In this document: positions 44,707 to 52,278 of the stretch, one piece after another
Layout of the letters: the number at the start of each line of letters is the position of its first letter
How positions within the stretch are numbered: the stretch's first letter is position 1
Source: Flavobacteriaceae bacterium
Lineage (GTDB): Bacteria; Bacteroidota; Bacteroidia; Flavobacteriales; Flavobacteriaceae
Reading direction: 5' to 3'
DNA: 64,000 nucleotides
Assembly: GCA_016649715.1 (NCBI GenBank)
Contig: JAENXC010000015.1
Coordinates: forward strand, 1 to 64,000
Position numbers and translations under genes: made by a program
Notes under the pieces: generated by a model
The model's input: only the letters and a program-made list of their open reading frames with translations
Told to the model about the DNA's origin: nothing
Database searches by the model: none

Positions 44707-45723
44707 CTACAATCTTGTATCTGGGTAGAGATGGTCTATATGCTTCAAAACAGTATCGCGTGCTTCTTCTCTTATCTTTATATTCTCAAAACCGGGATAG
44801 ATATTTTTATACTGAACGGTTTCCCCTTTATCATTCTTTCCTTGCAAATCGTACCTGAAAATCACTTTGGTCCCTAATGGTGCATAATAATAGACAATCC
44901 AGGCATCAGATTCTCTCAAACCAATACAGCCATTGGAAGAAGCTTTTTCCAAAGTTGCCAAGTTTGTCGTGGGATGGATAAGTTGGCCGAGGCTACGGCC
45001 ATTTATAGCAGGTTCCAACCATGGAATAGCGGGCAGAGAGGTCAGTTTTCCATCATCACGATATGTTTTTTTATATTTATGGTTATTCACGGGATTCATA
45101 TATGTGGGGTTTTTATTTACCCTGATTATTTCACCTATTCCGGGCATTGTCCTCATATCTACCTCTCTTTTGGCCATAGCCAAATACCTTTTGCTGTTTT
45201 TTCCAACCCTCACGGGAAACTTATATATTTCTTTTCCATCCTGAATGATCCGAAGCCTGAATTCTGGAATATTTAAATCTAGATATGTGTTGTCTAATTG
45301 CACTTTCAGTTGCTGCGTTTGCAAAGAATCTGGAATAACCAAAACCTGATCCTTTTGCAAAGCTATCAACGATTTGGGATCTTCATTAAAAACTCCTTTA
45401 TCCATTAAGTAATAATAATCTGTATGGGCCAAAGTGTCCAAAATCCAATTGTTGTGATGCACAATAATATACTCGTCAATAGGATAATTGAAGTTTTGGT
45501 TATGTTCTGCAACAATACTATCCATCCATTTAAAATAGGAGTGAATCTGCACATCTTTATTGATTACTATTTCAATTGGGATTGATGTTTCAGCTTGTTT
45601 TAAACTATCAGTTTGAACTAAGCCATTTTCGTTATTTGAATTCTCTTCAACTCTATTGATTTTATTGTTGTTTATGCAACCGATAAACACGAAAGAGAGA
45701 ATAAGTAGAAATATATTTTTCAT
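44707..45723 (-). CDS. L,D-transpeptidase lipoprotein (YkuD family)
   Basis: 338 residues from the ATG at 45721-45723; the longer frame has no support. Lipoprotein signal MKNIFLLILSFVFIGC (Cys 16). The catalytic YkuD motif reads HPTTNLATLEKASSNGCIGLRESD (split here: HPTTN ... SSNGCIGLR), with the active Cys in NGC. It forms 3-3 cross-links in peptidoglycan or attaches lipoproteins to it. A palindrome of the ATGAC-N4-GTCA type (45784-45797) lies 61 bases before the start. Confidence 0.9.
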   Translation of the reverse strand: MKNIFLLILSFVFIGCINNNKINRVEENSNNENGLVQTDSLKQAETSIPIEIVINKDVQIHSYFKWMDSIVAEHNQNFNYPIDEYIIVHHNNWILDTLAHTDYYYLMDKGVFNEDPKSLIALQKDQVLVIPDSLQTQQLKVQLDNTYLDLNIPEFRLRIIQDGKEIYKFPVRVGKNSKRYLAMAKREVDMRTMPGIGEIIRVNKNPTYMNPVNNHKYKKTYRDDGKLTSLPAIPWLEPAINGRSLGQLIHPTTNLATLEKASSNGCIGLRESDAWIVYYYAPLGTKVIFRYDLQGKNDKGETVQYKNIYPGFENIKIREEARDTVLKHIDHLYPDTRL

Positions 45724-45783
45724 AATTATTTCAGCACATTTTTTTAAAAAAAAGAAAACTATAAAAAATAAACACATTTGGCA

Positions 45784-45797
45784 ATGACATCGGTCAG
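45784..45797 (-). promoter_or_regulatory. Candidate operator 1, ATGAC-N4-GTCAG
   Basis: ATGACATCGGTCAG. Its centre lies 29.5 bases from the first base of the minus-strand -7-like TAGTTTTC (45754-45761). The same geometry holds for the two other sites, in front of the genes at 49768 and 50542. Confidence 0.5.
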
Positions 45798-45986
45798 TAT
45801 AAGAATTCATTTTGGTATTTTTTTCAAACTGATATTCATCATTTTTTTGCTATAGCGAACAAGTTTAAAAATAAGTTTTAAGCGAGCTTTCTAAAGGAAA
45901 ACAACATTTATAGAATGAATTTGAGAAGACAATTCAAATCGTGTTAAAAGAAAATATCCCGTGCATATAATGCAGGATTACGTGAA

Positions 45987-46013
45987 TTGGGCACATAATG
46001 TTTCTTACTTTTG
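45987..46013 (+). promoter_or_regulatory. Promoter of pta
   Basis: TTG (45987-45989), 16 bases, TACTTTTG (46006-46013). The -7 box is perfect, the spacing slightly short. It places the transcription start after the alternative ATG at 45998 and supports the pta start at 46028. Confidence 0.5.
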
Positions 46014-46027
46014 AGAAAATATTAAAA

Positions 46028-48121
46028 ATGAACAAAGCCATCTACATTGCCACAACAGAACCTGACAGCGGCAAGTCTATTGTCTCTTTGGGACTGATGC
46101 AATCGCTATTGGGGAAGGCAGCAAAAGTAGGCTATTTTAGGCCTATTATTGACGATGTAAAACCAGGAGAAATAGACAACCATATCAACACAGTTTCAAC
46201 CTATTTCAATTTGGATATCAAGTTTGAAGACGCATACGCTTTTAGCCGAAGCGAGGTAATTCGGAAAACAAATGAAAACAAAGACGATGAAATCATTAGT
46301 AGGATTATTGAAAAGTACAAAGCCCTTGAAGCGCGTTTCGATTTTGTATTGATAGAAGGCACTGGTTTTACTGGCGAAGGATCCATTAAAGAATTTGATA
46401 TTAATGTGCTAATTGCTAAGAATCTAGGTGTGCCTGCTATTATTCTGGCCAGTGGCATTGGCAAAACATTGGAAGAGTTTGTTGGAAGGTTACAAATGGC
46501 TTTTGATTCTTTTAAAGATAAAGGTGTTGAGGTTTTGGCTGTTATCGCCAATAAAGTAGAACCAAGAAATCAGGCATTAGTGATTTCTGAATTGGAAAAA
46601 TACTTGCCTTCAGAAGTAATTGTAAGTGCAATTCCGCTAAATCCTATTTTGGCAAATCCCTCCATTAAGGAAATAGTGGACACCTTAGACGCAAAGGTGC
46701 TTTTTGGCGAAGCCTATATTAACAATCAAGCTGGAAATTATAGTGTGGGCGCAATGCAACTGCATAACTATCTCCTTCATTTAAAAGAAAATGCCTTGGT
46801 AATTACACCCGGTGACAGAGCCGATATTATTTTAGGAGCCTTGCAGGCAAACATTTCTGGCAACTACCCATCTATATCCGGGATCGTGCTTACAGCTGGT
46901 TTGGTGCCCGAAGATTCAATTATTAAACTCATTGAAGGACTTTCAGATGTTGTTCCGATTATTTCAGTAAAAGGAGGGACATTTTCTGTTACCAATAGTC
47001 TCGGAAGCATAAAATCGCAGATTTATGCCGAGAATACGGAAAAGATAACTACCTCCATTAAGGACTTTGAAAAGTATGTAAAAGTAGATGCGCTGATAGA
47101 ACGTCTCATTACGTTCAAAACAAACGGAATTACGCCTCGAATGTTCCAGTATAACTTATTTCAAAAAGCAAAATCCAACAAAAAGCACATTGTTCTGCCC
47201 GAAGGATTGGATGAACGCATTTTAAGAGCCACAAAACGACTGATTGAACTGGATGCTATGAAAATCACATTACTTGGAGATAAAAAACAAATAGAAGAAA
47301 AAATAACTTCGCTTGATATTGCGCTGGATTTAAACAAAATTAACATTATAAACCCCAGTGAATCCGTTCATTTTGATTCTTATGCAGAAACTCTTTATGA
47401 ACTTCGTAAACATAAGAATGTCAATCTTGCAATGGCTAAAGATTTAATGGAAGACGTGTCCTACTTTGGGACAATGATGGTTTTTAAAGGCGATGCGGAT
47501 GGTATGGTTTCCGGCGCCGAACATACCACGCAACACACCATAGTTCCAGCACTTCAATTTATAAAAACCAAACCTGAAGCTTCCATCGTTTCTTCTGTGT
47601 TTTTTATGCTTTTGGAAGATCGCGTTTCTGTGTATGGAGATTGTGCAATAAATCCAAATCCTACAGCAGAACAATTAGCTGAAATCGCCATTTCGTCTGC
47701 AGCTACCAGTTTGGCTTTTGGGATTGAACCTAAAATTGCGATGTTATCCTATTCTTCAGGAGCCTCGGGTGTTGGGGCAGATGTGGAAAGGGTGCGAAAA
47801 GCAACAGAAATTGTCAGGACAAAAAGGCCCGATCTAAAAGTGGAGGGCCCTATTCAATACGATGCTGCGGTGGACATTGCCGTCGGTAAATTGAAAATGC
47901 CAAATTCTGAAGTTGCAGGACAAGCCAATGTGTTTATTTTTCCCGATCTCAATACGGGAAACAACACTTACAAGGCAGTGCAGCGAGAAACCAAAGCATT
48001 GGCCATTGGCCCGATAATTCAAGGCTTAAACAAACCCGTTAACGATTTAAGCCGAGGCTGCACCATAGACGATATTTTTAATACCGTTATTGTTACCGCA
48101 ATTCAGGCACAAGATTCATAA
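46028..48121 (+). CDS. pta: Phosphate acetyltransferase, long form
   Basis: 697 residues from MNKAIYIATTEPDSGKS. An N-terminal P-loop-like BioD/DRTGG regulatory part (about 1-360) precedes the catalytic PTA domain (about 370-697): KHIVLPEGLDERILRAT, SGAEHTTQHTIVPALQFIKT and VEGPIQYDAAVD. It converts acetyl-CoA and phosphate to acetyl phosphate. ackA follows after a 218-base palindromic spacer. Confidence 0.95.
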   Translation: MNKAIYIATTEPDSGKSIVSLGLMQSLLGKAAKVGYFRPIIDDVKPGEIDNHINTVSTYFNLDIKFEDAYAFSRSEVIRKTNENKDDEIISRIIEKYKALEARFDFVLIEGTGFTGEGSIKEFDINVLIAKNLGVPAIILASGIGKTLEEFVGRLQMAFDSFKDKGVEVLAVIANKVEPRNQALVISELEKYLPSEVIVSAIPLNPILANPSIKEIVDTLDAKVLFGEAYINNQAGNYSVGAMQLHNYLLHLKENALVITPGDRADIILGALQANISGNYPSISGIVLTAGLVPEDSIIKLIEGLSDVVPIISVKGGTFSVTNSLGSIKSQIYAENTEKITTSIKDFEKYVKVDALIERLITFKTNGITPRMFQYNLFQKAKSNKKHIVLPEGLDERILRATKRLIELDAMKITLLGDKKQIEEKITSLDIALDLNKINIINPSESVHFDSYAETLYELRKHKNVNLAMAKDLMEDVSYFGTMMVFKGDADGMVSGAEHTTQHTIVPALQFIKTKPEASIVSSVFFMLLEDRVSVYGDCAINPNPTAEQLAEIAISSAATSLAFGIEPKIAMLSYSSGASGVGADVERVRKATEIVRTKRPDLKVEGPIQYDAAVDIAVGKLKMPNSEVAGQANVFIFPDLNTGNNTYKAVQRETKALAIGPIIQGLNKPVNDLSRGCTIDDIFNTVIVTAIQAQDS

Positions 48122-48171
48122 ACCGATGATTTTTATAAACAAAATAAAACACGAGGATATGGACAAAATGA

Positions 48172-48275
48172 TATAGGACTTAGGACTAAATGACATAGGA
48201 CGTAGGACTGAATAAAAGGCAATAATTACAATAACATTAGTCCTATGTCCTACGTCTTACCGTCTTAAGTCCTTT
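48172..48275. repeat. Inverted word-repeat (ATAGGACTTAGGAC)
   Basis: Tandem words ATAGGACTTAGGACT...ACATAGGACGTAGGACT (48172-48209) face TAGTCCTATGTCCTACGTC...CTTAAGTCCTT (48238-48275). The two arms can pair over about 18 bases. Same type as 38839-38949. Lies between pta and ackA and may reduce ackA read-through. Confidence 0.6.
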
Positions 48276-48339
48276 CTAAATATGCATCAAATTAACAATT
48301 GGCAATCCTTCTAGCCATCCAAAAGAAAAAGATAATAAA

Positions 48340-49524
48340 ATGAATATATTGATAATCAATTCGGGAAGCTCTTCCATAAAATTTCAGTTAATAGAAATGC
48401 CTTCCGAAGTATTGATATGTAGTGGATTAGTAGAGCGCATTGGTCATAAAGATGCTGTTCTAAATTATAAAACAAAATCTACTTCCCTTCAGCAAACAGA
48501 TAACATAGAGACGCACAATCAAGGACTGCACAAAATCGTGGAAGTACTGCTTGATCCTGAAAAAGGGGTTATTGAGAACACAAATGAAATAGAGGTGGTT
48601 GGCCATCGCGTTGTACATGGCGGAAATTCATTTTCAAATACCACGTTAATCACTGCCGAAGTTAAGCAAGAGATCCAAAAGTATGCTACTTTGGCACCGC
48701 TTCATAATCCTGGTAATCTTGAAGGTATTCTTGTTGCTGAAGAATTTTTTCCTTTGGCAAAACAAGTTGCGGTTTTCGATACAGCTTTTCATCAAACCAT
48801 TCCGGAAAAAGCCAAAAAGTATGCAATTCCCAACAAGCTTTACGAAGAACAAGGTATTCAGGTCTATGGTTTCCACGGCACGAGCCACCAATATGTTTCT
48901 GAAAAAGCGATTGAATATTTAGGGCTCAAAACTTCCAAAATCATTTCCATTCATTTGGGCAATGGTTGCAGTATGACTGCGGTTGTAGATGGTAAGAGCA
49001 TAGATAACAGTTTAGGGTTTACACCTTCAAATGGTTTAATAATGGGCTCCAGAAGTGGCGATATAGACCAGGGCATAATTTTCTATTTGGTCAAAAATTT
49101 AGGCTACAGTCTGGATGAGGTGAAAGATCTGCTCACAAATAAAAGCGGAATGTTGGGCCTTACCGGATTCGCCGATTTAAGGGATATTGAGGCTGAAGCT
49201 GGGAAGGGAAATAGAAATTGCATTCTCGCTTTATCGATGAACGCTTATCGTATTAAAAAATATATTGGTGCTTATGCTTCCGCTATGAACGGTTTGGACG
49301 CCATTGTTTTCACCGCCGGAATTGGCGAAAATTCAAGTGTGATACGAAAACTTGTGTGTACAGATATGGATTTCTTCGGAATTGATTTGGATGAAGCCAA
49401 AAACGAATCAAAAGCCAAAGATTTACGGGAAATCAACACTACAACTTCCAAAGTAAAAATTTTGGTCATCCCTACAAATGAAGAACTGGAGATTGCAAAA
49501 CAAGCCTTTCAGTTGCTTAATTAA
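48340..49524 (+). CDS. ackA: Acetate kinase
   Basis: 394 residues. Makes ATP and acetate from acetyl phosphate. Seen: the start ILIINSGSSSIKFQL, GHRVVHGGNSF, VYGFHGTSHQYVSEKA, HLGNGCSMTAV, GSRSGDID and the C-terminal VFTAGIGENSSVIR. All catalytic motifs are in place. Forms the acetate pathway with pta and, indirectly, with the PoxB-like gene at 35027. Confidence 0.96.
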   Translation: MNILIINSGSSSIKFQLIEMPSEVLICSGLVERIGHKDAVLNYKTKSTSLQQTDNIETHNQGLHKIVEVLLDPEKGVIENTNEIEVVGHRVVHGGNSFSNTTLITAEVKQEIQKYATLAPLHNPGNLEGILVAEEFFPLAKQVAVFDTAFHQTIPEKAKKYAIPNKLYEEQGIQVYGFHGTSHQYVSEKAIEYLGLKTSKIISIHLGNGCSMTAVVDGKSIDNSLGFTPSNGLIMGSRSGDIDQGIIFYLVKNLGYSLDEVKDLLTNKSGMLGLTGFADLRDIEAEAGKGNRNCILALSMNAYRIKKYIGAYASAMNGLDAIVFTAGIGENSSVIRKLVCTDMDFFGIDLDEAKNESKAKDLREINTTTSKVKILVIPTNEELEIAKQAFQLLN

Positions 49525-49679
49525 TTTCTTCTTTCTCTACTGCTATTGCTGTCCTGACATAAAAACGGCAAGAACTTCCCGACCTAGAAATAGCATAAAT
49601 ATTAGTAAGATAATTCTTCAGGCTCTCATTGTTTTCCAATTTAATTCCGCAAAGTAAATGGATGGGAAAGAAATTTTGG

Positions 49680-49693
49680 ATGACCCAGATCAT
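49680..49693 (+). promoter_or_regulatory. Candidate operator 2, ATGAC-N4-ATCAT
   Basis: ATGACCCAGATCAT, with its centre 29.5 bases from the T of TAGCTTTG (49716-49723), a perfect -7 element for the gene at 49768. Start codon 75 bases downstream. Confidence 0.55.
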
Positions 49694-49767
49694 TTTGAGT
49701 AAGCTTCATTTTAATTAGCTTTGAAATAAATTAAACTTCAAAAAAGGAGTTTATAAACTATTTTGTA

Positions 49768-50274
49768 ATGAAGGTAAGTTGGAAAAAAATAATCGTCATT
49801 TTAATTGTTTTAATTATATCCATTTTTGGATTCCTGACTTGGTTTAAATACACATATTCCATGGGAATTGCGGAGCCTTTTGAGGTCAATAGCCCTCTAT
49901 TGGAGCAAAAAATATTAATAGCCACACAGAGCAGTGAATTCAAAGATAAAGTTGTTGACGGCTTAGTTGAGAGATTAAAAGATAGGTCTATTTATTTAAA
50001 AGTTATTGATATATCATCCTTGCCAAAAATTGAGGATGATGATTTTACAGCCATTGTCGTGCTCCATAACTGGGAGCTGCAAAAGCCACCTGAGGTTATA
50101 GAACAGTTTTTAAAACAATCAAAAAATACTGAAAAGATTGTGGTGTTGGCAACTTCTGGAGGAAGCGATACGTCCATGGAGGGCATCGAAGGCATAAGTG
50201 GCGAATCTATAATTAGTGAAATCCCAGAAAAGGCAGATCAACTTATGTCTAAATTAGAACAATTGTTAAAATGA
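49768..50274 (+). CDS. Membrane-anchored flavodoxin-like protein
   Basis: 168 residues. One N-terminal helix (about 7-26, KIIVILIVLIISIFGFLTW), then a flavodoxin-like alpha/beta fold: EQKILIATQSSEFKDKVVDGLVERL, DDDFTAIVVLHNWELQ and KIVVLATSGGS. The FMN phosphate loop of true flavodoxins (TxTGxT) is replaced by TQSSEF, so FMN binding is doubtful. Carries candidate operator 2. Confidence 0.7.
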   Translation: MKVSWKKIIVILIVLIISIFGFLTWFKYTYSMGIAEPFEVNSPLLEQKILIATQSSEFKDKVVDGLVERLKDRSIYLKVIDISSLPKIEDDDFTAIVVLHNWELQKPPEVIEQFLKQSKNTEKIVVLATSGGSDTSMEGIEGISGESIISEIPEKADQLMSKLEQLLK

Positions 50275-50365
50275 AATTCAATCATTTAAAATTGTAAAGA
50301 CAAGAAATTTTACTGCTTTCAGTAGGCCTTCAATGAAAGAGTATTCGTTAAACAATTGGAACCCA

Positions 50366-50407
50366 GAAAATCTCCTTACCCTTTAGAGCTAGGGTAAGGA
50401 GATTTTC
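50366..50407 (+). terminator. Strong hairpin, probable terminator
   Basis: A perfect 17-bp stem, GAAAATCTCCTTACCCT with AGGGTAAGGAGATTTTC, and an 8-base loop, 92 bases after the flavodoxin-like gene. The T run is short. Confidence 0.65.
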
Positions 50408-50470
50408 GGCAACAAGATGCTTCTCCATTATTCGCGTTATTAAATAATTGATTTCGGAAATTTTTTCAAA

Positions 50471-50484
50471 ATGACTTGGGTCAT
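50471..50484 (+). promoter_or_regulatory. Candidate operator 3, ATGAC-N4-GTCAT
   Basis: ATGACTTGGGTCAT, a perfect palindrome flanked by AAA/TTT. Its centre lies 29.5 bases from the first base of AACCTTTG (50507-50514), a one-mismatch -7 element. Start codon of the next gene 58 bases downstream. No -33 TTTG is seen. Confidence 0.55.
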
Positions 50485-50541
50485 TTTAAATATCGATGTA
50501 AAATTGAACCTTTGAATAGTTTATTTTAAAGAAATTATACA

Positions 50542-50928
50542 ATGGAAAAACAAGTTTTATACAACGACAATATGCATTTTGAACACCAAAAGTGGAAAGG
50601 AGAGATTGCTTTTTGGAAAGACGAATTAAAATCCTTCAACATAAGGTTGAATGAACTTATAACACGTTGGGCAAATAAAGAAGTGCTCGCTCAAATTGGG
50701 CATTACCAAAATCAGTTTATCGTTCACGGGGGTGTTATTGAAGATTTGCTTGAAACCATCGAACAACACGAAACGCGCATGGCCGTACAAAGCCAAGCGG
50801 GCACAGATGTGCTGGATACACAATTGTCCAAAACGCACATTGAGTTTAGAGATCAAATGGAAACGCAAAGAGAGATATACGCCGAACTTAAAAAGAGTTT
50901 TTTTAGGTTTCTTGAAAAATATTTGTAG
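50542..50928 (+). CDS. Coiled-coil hypothetical protein
   Basis: 128 residues, all-helical with strong heptads: HEHQK-like start (MHFEHQKWKGEIAFWKDELK), then NIRLNELITRWANKEVLAQIGHYQNQF, VIEDLLETIEQHETR and QMETQREIYAELKKSFFRFL. Resembles a four-helix bundle, but no metal-ligand pattern could be assigned. Function unknown. Carries candidate operator 3. Confidence 0.7.
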   Translation: MEKQVLYNDNMHFEHQKWKGEIAFWKDELKSFNIRLNELITRWANKEVLAQIGHYQNQFIVHGGVIEDLLETIEQHETRMAVQSQAGTDVLDTQLSKTHIEFRDQMETQREIYAELKKSFFRFLEKYL

Positions 50929-51215: not shown

Positions 51216-52278
51216 ATGATTGATAAAATAGGGGTACTAGGTTTAGGGAAAGTGGGGAGTCTTGTTGCTACCTTACTAAGTTCAAAATATGTAGTAGAAG
51301 GTATGGACCAGGCTGAACCTGATGCTGCATTTCCTTTTAAAATGGTAAAAGGAGATGTTTCCAAAGACGAATCCATTCGCGAATTTCTTAAAAACAAGCA
51401 AGCTGTAGTTTCTTGTTTGCCTTATTTTCTCAATATAAAAATAGCCCAAACAGCAGCCGATATGGGCGTGCATTACTTTGATTTAACTGAAGATGTGCCC
51501 ACACTGAACACTATTCGTAAAATGTCAAAAAACAGCAAAGCCGTTTTGGCTCCACAATGCGGTTTGGCACCCGGATTTATCGGAATATTAGGTGCCGGAT
51601 TGTATTCCCAGTTTTCTGAAATTCGATCTGTGAAACTAAGGGTAGGGGCATTACCTCTGCACCCTATGGGGCAATTGGGATATAGTTTCACCTGGAGTGC
51701 CGAAGGGGTTATCAATGAATACCTCAATGATCCATAATAGTCAGCGTAAAATGGTAAGTTCTCTGGATGATGTAGAATCGATCAACATAAACGGACGCCT
51801 ATATGAGGCTTTCTCTACTTCAGGCGGGTTGGGAACCATGTGCGAAACTTTAGATGGTAAAGTGGATACCCTAAATTATAAAACCATGAGATATCCGGGA
51901 CATAGGGACGCCATTAAATTGTTGCTTTACGATCTACAGTTAAAAAACGATCGAAAGTTGGCAAAAGAAATCTTAAACAATGCCTTGCCTCTGGTAGATG
52001 AAGATATTGTATTGGTTTATGCCGCTGTGGAAGGAAAGATAAAAGGCAGCTTGAGAAGAAAAGAATTTAGCGAATCTTACCGCAGAATAAATTTGGATGG
52101 TAAAGATTGGCGAGCCATAAGCTGGACCACCGCATGCAGTATTTCAACTGTAGTAGATCTTGTTTCTGAAGGAAAATTAAAAAACAAAGGTTTTATTAAG
52201 CAGGAAGACATTCCGCTGGATATGTTTTTACAATCGCATTTCGGATCTATGTATGAAACATACAAAGACCCGAAATAA
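51216..52278 (+). pseudogene. Saccharopine-dehydrogenase-like oxidoreductase, frameshifted
   Basis: The N-terminal half (51216-51737) has the Rossmann start IGVLGLGKVGSLVATLL, YFDLTEDVP and LAPQCGLAPGFIGILGAGL, and ends abruptly after VINEYLNDP. The other half, in the +1 frame (about 51705-52278), continues with HNSQRKMVSSLDDVESI and YEAFSTSGGLGTMCETLDGKV. Together they equal one protein of about 350 residues of the saccharopine/lysine-6-dehydrogenase type. A one-base change near 51725-51740 breaks the frame. Either a recent pseudogene or a sequence error. Confidence 0.85.

Follow-up and report, generated by a model that had tools for sequence, protein, structure and literature searches.

Three 5-4-5 palindromes, each standing at one fixed distance from a promoter −7 element, were found in a stretch of 64,000 nucleotides (nt) from a Flavobacteriaceae bacterium (positions 1 to 64,000 of contig JAENXC010000015.1, assembly GCA_016649715.1; hereafter the window). 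We read them as class-II activator boxes of a low-oxygen regulon, most likely bound by a Crp-type protein that carries a receiver (hereafter receiver-Crp) and has a FixL-like kinase as its partner, and we give this reading a probability of about 0.7. Direct reading of the window found the palindromes where a first-pass annotation had placed them. They are listed here with their −7 elements and the genes behind them; scores are those of a matrix trained on 324 distinct sites, taken from 69 loci of other genera.

45784..45797, minus strand: box 1, CTGAC-CGAT-GTCAT, CTGACCGATGTCAT, 5′ of the L,D-transpeptidase (LDT) lipoprotein gene; matrix score 25.7, the highest in the window
45754..45761, minus strand (45761 down to 45754): −7 element of box 1, TAGTTTTC, 22 nt after the palindrome
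44707..45723, minus strand: target 1, YkuD LDT lipoprotein (PF03734, E 3.9e-17)
49680..49693, plus strand: box 2, ATGAC-CCAG-ATCAT, ATGACCCAGATCAT, an exact match to the composite pattern in its WTGAY form; matrix score 25.2, second in the window
49716..49723, plus strand: −7 element of box 2, TAGCTTTG
49768..50274, plus strand: target 2, a 168-residue protein with a predicted N-terminal helix
50471..50484, plus strand: box 3, ATGAC-TTGG-GTCAT, ATGACTTGGGTCAT; matrix score 20.5, third in the window
50507..50514, plus strand: −7 element of box 3, AACCTTTG
50542..50928, plus strand: target 3, a 128-residue protein, annotated at first as a putative coiled coil

As annotated, all three palindromes are centred 29.5 nt 5′ of the first base of the −7 element, which has 1, 0 and 1 mismatches to TAnnTTTG for boxes 1, 2 and 3 respectively. 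The outer C of box 1, initially counted as a mismatch, is the commonest base at that place in relatives (C 0.52, A 0.34). The palindrome alone is unremarkable in the window, with 27 matches at up to 2 mismatches versus 22.2 expected. Allowing up to 1 mismatch in each of ATGACNNNNGTCAT and TANNTTTG, and a gap of 22 between them, we saw 4 sites, namely boxes 1 to 3 and the reverse reading of the 49680 palindrome; 100 windows simulated with a Markov-1 model averaged 0.05 such sites, and none had more than 1. In 156 kb of sequence from the same genome, boxes 1, 2 and 3 rank 9th, 11th and 13th of 311,618 positions by the matrix; because the spacing rule entered its training, this ranking is no test of the spacing.

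The spacing was counted from the palindrome core alone, in the best 80 named receiver-Crp loci of at least 578 (922 core readings, each core being read twice because it is self-complementary). An exact TAnnTTTG was found 147 times at one distance from the core and 13 times two bases beyond it, and at most 6 times at every other distance. Patterns were also counted over whole genomes, with the reversed pattern as control. The strict ATGAC-N4-GTCAT of the first-pass annotation is not enriched in the own genome, with 62 matches versus 88 for the control at up to 1 mismatch, and 7 versus 5 exact ones. We replaced it by HTGAY-N4-RTCAW, followed after 22 nt by TAnnTTTG. In the own genome, the composite WTGAYNNNNRTCAW-N22-TANNTTTG gave 109 matches versus 55 when up to 2 mismatches were allowed, and its exact WTGAY form 7 versus 0. 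In a family sample of 149 Flavobacteriaceae genomes, own genome included, 679 exact composites were found versus 11, spread over 127 genomes, and the 80 receiver-Crp loci (1.25 Mb) contained 237 sites versus 1. We conclude that the signal is the palindrome together with the spacing, the −7 element and the relaxed consensus, and not the palindrome alone.

In the part of PMC9723704 available to us, a flavobacterial sigma-A box, TAnnTTTG, spans −12 to −5, and our −7 elements resemble those promoters. Combined with the 29.5-nt distance, this puts the palindrome centre at −41.5, in line with the earlier proposal of a Crp/Fnr-type box near −41; with their TGA-N6-TCA core the boxes would thus be class-II sites, for a predicted start position.

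The regulon is not as small as was first annotated. The own genome has 27 sites when no more than 1 mismatch is allowed, and by our reading 22 of them lie 5′ of a gene start, at 338 nt for one of them (L010) and at 250 nt or less for the others. Site L026 was flagged within a longer frame starting at TTG, and an ATG is present after its −7 element. The five remaining sites are L023 (the reverse reading of box 2), L025, L032, L035 and L036, with L032 and L036 inside genes. Pfam and NCBIfam matches identified, behind the boxes, genes for Usp (4), proline dehydrogenase, ccoN, MlaE, a 4Fe-4S ferredoxin-like protein, zinc alcohol dehydrogenase, hemN, an E1-E2 ATPase, RIC, patatin, formate-tetrahydrofolate ligase and 2-oxoacid:acceptor oxidoreductase alpha. 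Another box is found 5′ of a cytochrome c gene that has nosZ behind it in the same orientation; we took these as one cluster. NCBIfam cut-offs were passed by hemN, RIC, ccoN, NosZ and the 2-oxoacid oxidoreductase; no Pfam family was found for L018, L022, L026 and L034. The 75-residue open reading frame before ccoN is presumably ccoS. On a single own-genome contig, boxes of the relaxed form ATGAY-N4-RTCAT stand 5′ of Usp genes, of the 2-oxoacid:acceptor oxidoreductase gene and of the nosZ cluster. HemN and ccoN are typical low-oxygen genes, and RIC and nosZ typically belong to nitrogen-oxide responses. The idea that the three window genes share a regulon is supported, a Crp/Fnr-type activator box being present 5′ of each, and the gene content suggests that the boxes probably mark a Flavobacteriaceae regulon of low-oxygen type.

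Four HTH_Crp_2 matches, one of them below the curated cut-off, were found in the own genome. The candidate regulator, encoded at C1:45077-46129 and matched as C1:44990-46129, combines a receiver (PF00072, E 8.4e-29), a cyclic-nucleotide-binding (cNMP) domain (PF00027, E 9.9e-18) and HTH_Crp_2 (PF13545, E 4.7e-13); it has the cNMP-binding fold and the HTH_Crp of the Crp/Fnr family. Like response regulators, all 81 receiver-Crp proteins keep the phospho-acceptor Asp and the Lys of the receiver. The DNA-reading helix of the own protein, ATES-L-I-R, is nearly equal to the ATES-A-I-R of flavobacterial FNR-like proteins. The Fe-S cluster cysteines of FNR proper are not found: a single column of the Crp part has Cys in more than 20 of 81, namely in 28, and the own protein has no Cys there. 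FixJ is defined as a receiver with a LuxR/FixJ-type helix-turn-helix; here the helix-turn-helix is HTH_Crp_2, and no LuxR-type one occurs among the Pfam matches of receiver-Crp. FixK is a Crp/Fnr protein that has no Fe-S cysteines and whose gene is turned on by FixJ. In receiver-Crp such cysteines are absent, and the NCBIfam FixK model scores 61 of 300 bits, far under its cut-off. As the receiver lies within the same protein as the Crp module, the FixJ step is absent as such. Full-length receiver-Crp was counted in 66 of the 149 genomes (67 matched; G002, with the receiver only, was left out). A box with at most 1 mismatch lies within 400 nt past the receiver-Crp stop in 71 of the 78 loci with enough sequence (of 80), and kinase and Usp homologues are found in 78 and 76 of the 80 loci. 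Of the single Fnr-type activator proposed at first, the Crp/Fnr type stands, but the regulator is probably no simple Fnr: it would join receiver, cNMP and HTH_Crp in one protein and have a FixL-like kinase as its partner.

In the own genome, the gene of this PAS-HisKA-HATPase kinase adjoins that of receiver-Crp. Among solved structures its PAS domain comes nearest to that of FixL, a haem-PAS (E about 1e-16), and the best solved relatives are FixL and DosP. The haem-ligand His is kept in the own kinase. An alignment of 75 kinases was made (the own one and 74 others paired with receiver-Crp, 4 of 78 being left out as not aligned from near the N-terminus), in which the FixL haem His is present in 52, and His together with the distal Arg in 41.

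The three window genes were followed through the family, scanning upstream of homologues for a palindrome with at most 1 mismatch and a −7-like element with at most 2, at exactly 22 nt. The 128-residue protein was matched in 32 of the 149 genomes at E≤1e-5, of which the 18 with at least 40% identity make up the orthologue set. Its box is kept in 13 of these 18 (own included) versus 1 of 12 distant paralogues, and AACCTTTG or CACCTTTG was found again as −7 element in three orthologues. In the comparison of orthologous upstream regions, proposed as a check by the first-pass annotation, conservation of the box is good for this gene; the outcome for the two others is given below. All three genes co-occur with receiver-Crp, which is present in 65 of the 148 other genomes: it is found in 16 of the 17 other holders of the 128-residue protein at ≥40% identity (p=6.6e-6), in 19 of the 22 other LDT holders (p=1.3e-5; homologues occur in 23 of 149 genomes, own included, the second LDT contig of G011 being counted once) and in 5 of the 5 other holders of the 168-residue protein (p=0.015). 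FNR presence was unlinked to these homologues (p=0.80, 0.43 and 0.68 for the 128-residue protein, LDT and the 168-residue protein). In other genomes, 7 of 17 genes for the 128-residue protein, 10 of 22 for LDT and 4 of 7 for the 168-residue protein lie within 25 kb of the receiver-Crp gene. A genome of the same genus (G027), from which the bacterium is taken to be an Aequorivita, has receiver-Crp; at our cut-offs none of the three genes was matched in it, which gives them the look of an accessory module. For the 168-residue protein, the 'flavodoxin-like' label found no support: no Pfam or NCBIfam family matched, and a low-confidence single-sequence model (predicted local distance difference test, pLDDT, 56) had no PDB match at E≤0.001.

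FNR-like proteins also accompany the boxes. They were counted at ≥47% identity from the N-terminus (partial matches of 40–44%, in G043 and G020, and below were left out) and are present in 88 of 149 genomes. The own genome has no match at E≤1e-25, and the same-genus genome has no FNR-like protein either. Among 12 box-rich genomes chosen for lacking receiver-Crp, 10 have an FNR-like protein in which a C-x-x-C near the N-terminus is combined with the helix GTATESAIR; of the other two, G072 has one by the cut and G048 (82% complete) has none. All 30 FNR-like proteins examined have six Cys each. The mean number of exact sites per genome is 8.31 with both regulators (n=35), 4.65 with receiver-Crp only (n=31), 4.17 with FNR only (n=53) and 0.77 with neither (n=30), where 13 of the 23 sites come from two genomes 82% and 73% complete. 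The difference between receiver-Crp only and neither is significant (p=5e-9), and the receiver-Crp effect persists when genome size is accounted for (+3.87, standard error, SE, 0.49). In genomes of at least 3 Mb, the means are 8.09, 5.0, 4.39 and 0.5 in the same order. Box numbers thus follow receiver-Crp and, separately, the cysteine-bearing FNR, whereas the three window genes follow receiver-Crp only.

FNR-like proteins have the same fold, box and −7 spacing as receiver-Crp, and a near-identical reading helix; receiver-Crp differs in its receiver with phospho-acceptor Asp, in having no Cys of the Crp part kept in more than 28 of 81, and in forming its own clade. The tree holds 45 Crp modules, of which 17 are receiver-Crp, 15 FNR-like and 13 others; support is 99/97 for the receiver-Crp clade and 98/95 for the FNR-like clade, the deeper joins being unsure because of long branches. 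Among the 49 of 88 FNR genes checked for distance, the FNR-like gene is about 2 kb from the receiver-Crp gene in G110, G061, G121, G134 and G071, and 6.7 kb in G120, which means that both box readers can share one cluster.

We propose that upon a fall in oxygen the neighbouring PAS histidine kinase would phosphorylate receiver-Crp, that the phosphorylated dimer would bind HTGAY-N4-RTCAW centred at about −41.5, and that once bound it would help RNA polymerase at TAnnTTTG promoters, i.e. activate rather than repress. The nearest known logic is that of FixL-FixJ-FixK/FnrN in rhizobia, as described in the parts of PMC7888657 and PMC4999443 available to us: these also have a haem-PAS-type kinase, a Crp/Fnr reader of a 5-4-5 palindrome, a cbb3 oxidase target and a second oxygen sensor of FNR type on the same boxes, the FixK/FnrN pair sharing anaeroboxes (PMC7888657). 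In rhizobia, however, FixJ is a separate response regulator that turns on fixK, whereas here the receiver is fused to Crp/Fnr and one protein would do both; the rhizobial box is TTGAT-N4-ATCAA, compared to HTGAY-N4-RTCAW with the Bacteroidota TAnnTTTG promoter here. The merging of the last two steps into one protein would be the new element. A wider version, that the relay collapsed to two proteins, that receiver-Crp and FNR read one operator, either interchangeably or one added to the other, the box numbers per genome being about additive (4.65, 4.17 and 8.31), and that part of the kinases lost the haem pocket and changed signal, is more tentative, at slightly under even odds.

A number of observations weigh against receiver-Crp as an oxygen-responsive reader of the window boxes. 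The window and the receiver-Crp gene are on different contigs of the own genome (C4 and C1). The box is moderately kept 5′ of the gene for the 168-residue protein (4 of 7 other homologues) and weakly kept 5′ of the LDT gene (4 of 22), the closest LDT homologue, 62% identical, having none. Boxes occur in FNR-only genomes and are therefore not peculiar to receiver-Crp; G098, a receiver-Crp-only genome, has no exact site; and the genomes are mutually related, so that the p-values overstate independence. The own kinase has Leu at the FixL distal Arg position, and 23 of the 75 aligned kinases do not have the haem-ligand His. In 19 of these 23, Phe is found at both haem places, and three residues nearby are missing in 21 of the 75 (the L191-L270 set and the own kinase); a subgroup of the paired kinases is likely haem-less.

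The kinase residues bear on the strongest alternative, in which receiver-Crp is the regulator but answers to something other than oxygen (nitric oxide, redox state or a cNMP-fold ligand, for instance), the kinase PAS being no haem oxygen sensor. The His missing from 23 of the 75 kinases, the distal Arg missing from the own one, and RIC and nosZ among the boxed genes would fit it, but hemN and ccoN speak for low oxygen, and the own kinase retains the haem His with FixL and DosP as best solved PAS relatives; we find this alternative unlikely, though it deserves to be kept in view. Less probable still, the boxes would be read by another Crp-family protein of the own genome, on contig C8 (beside a globin-like gene), at C1:21711 or at C32:21257. 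By eye, the reading helix of the C8 protein shows the E-x-x-I-R seen in the others, but this protein is matched in 32 of 149 genomes and site counts are not raised there (−0.86, SE 0.56). The C1:21711 gene is downstream of the MlaE gene, which has its own box, but by eye its reading helix has no Glu. At that C8 locus (L003, C8:72753-75899), the globin-like gene, recognised by eye, is divergent to the Crp-family gene.

A third possibility is that the boxes are remnants of an FNR regulon with no present reader, FNR having been lost in the lineage. The lack of FNR-like protein in the own and same-genus genomes, against its presence in 88 of 149, is compatible with such a loss; site numbers are nevertheless as high with receiver-Crp only as with FNR only, and the window genes track receiver-Crp and not FNR, which makes this quite improbable. 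Finally, a chance coincidence of palindromes and −7-like strings in an AT-rich genome would suit the strict palindrome, which alone is not enriched, but is refuted for the site class by the 4 window sites versus 0.05 expected and the 679 versus 11 in the family, and hardly merits consideration.

A literature search, with regulon databases outside its scope and several papers available in part, found no description of the box or of the receiver-Crp fusion in Flavobacteriaceae, and no named regulator of low-oxygen genes in this family. In PMC9723704, cbb3 is induced at oxygen limitation, no regulator being named in the available part, and Fnr/Crp is absent from its main text. In the part of PMC8510549 available to us, a role in carbon sensing (MalR-like) is given to the Crp/Fnr homologues of one Flavobacteriales genome, which is another reading for flavobacterial Crp-family proteins. 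Flavobacteriaceae are a major family among marine bacteria, and the two candidate regulators, together with the box and its exact spacing, provide an annotation rule for them, which covers the nitrous oxide (N2O) reductase cluster of the own genome. With natural sets of genomes having one, both or neither regulator, how two sensing modes came to share one operator becomes testable.

Other features of the window were noted. A further palindrome lies between the LDT gene and pta:

45829..45842, no strand: CTGAT-ATTC-ATCAT, LDT/pta intergenic region

Lacking a −7 element at 22 nt, it has a low matrix score whichever way it is read, and a box for the pta-ackA operon was rejected on its low score in the pta direction. 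In the two receiver-Crp loci that contain pta (L254 and L257), the pta upstream region has only a 1-mismatch palindrome, 375 nt away. The pta-ackA spacer (window 48150-48280) contains, by eye, repeated GGACTTAGGAC-like units. A saccharopine-dehydrogenase-like gene (window 51216-52278), the first part of which matched Pfam, seems split over two overlapping frames, and appears to be either a broken gene or a sequence error.

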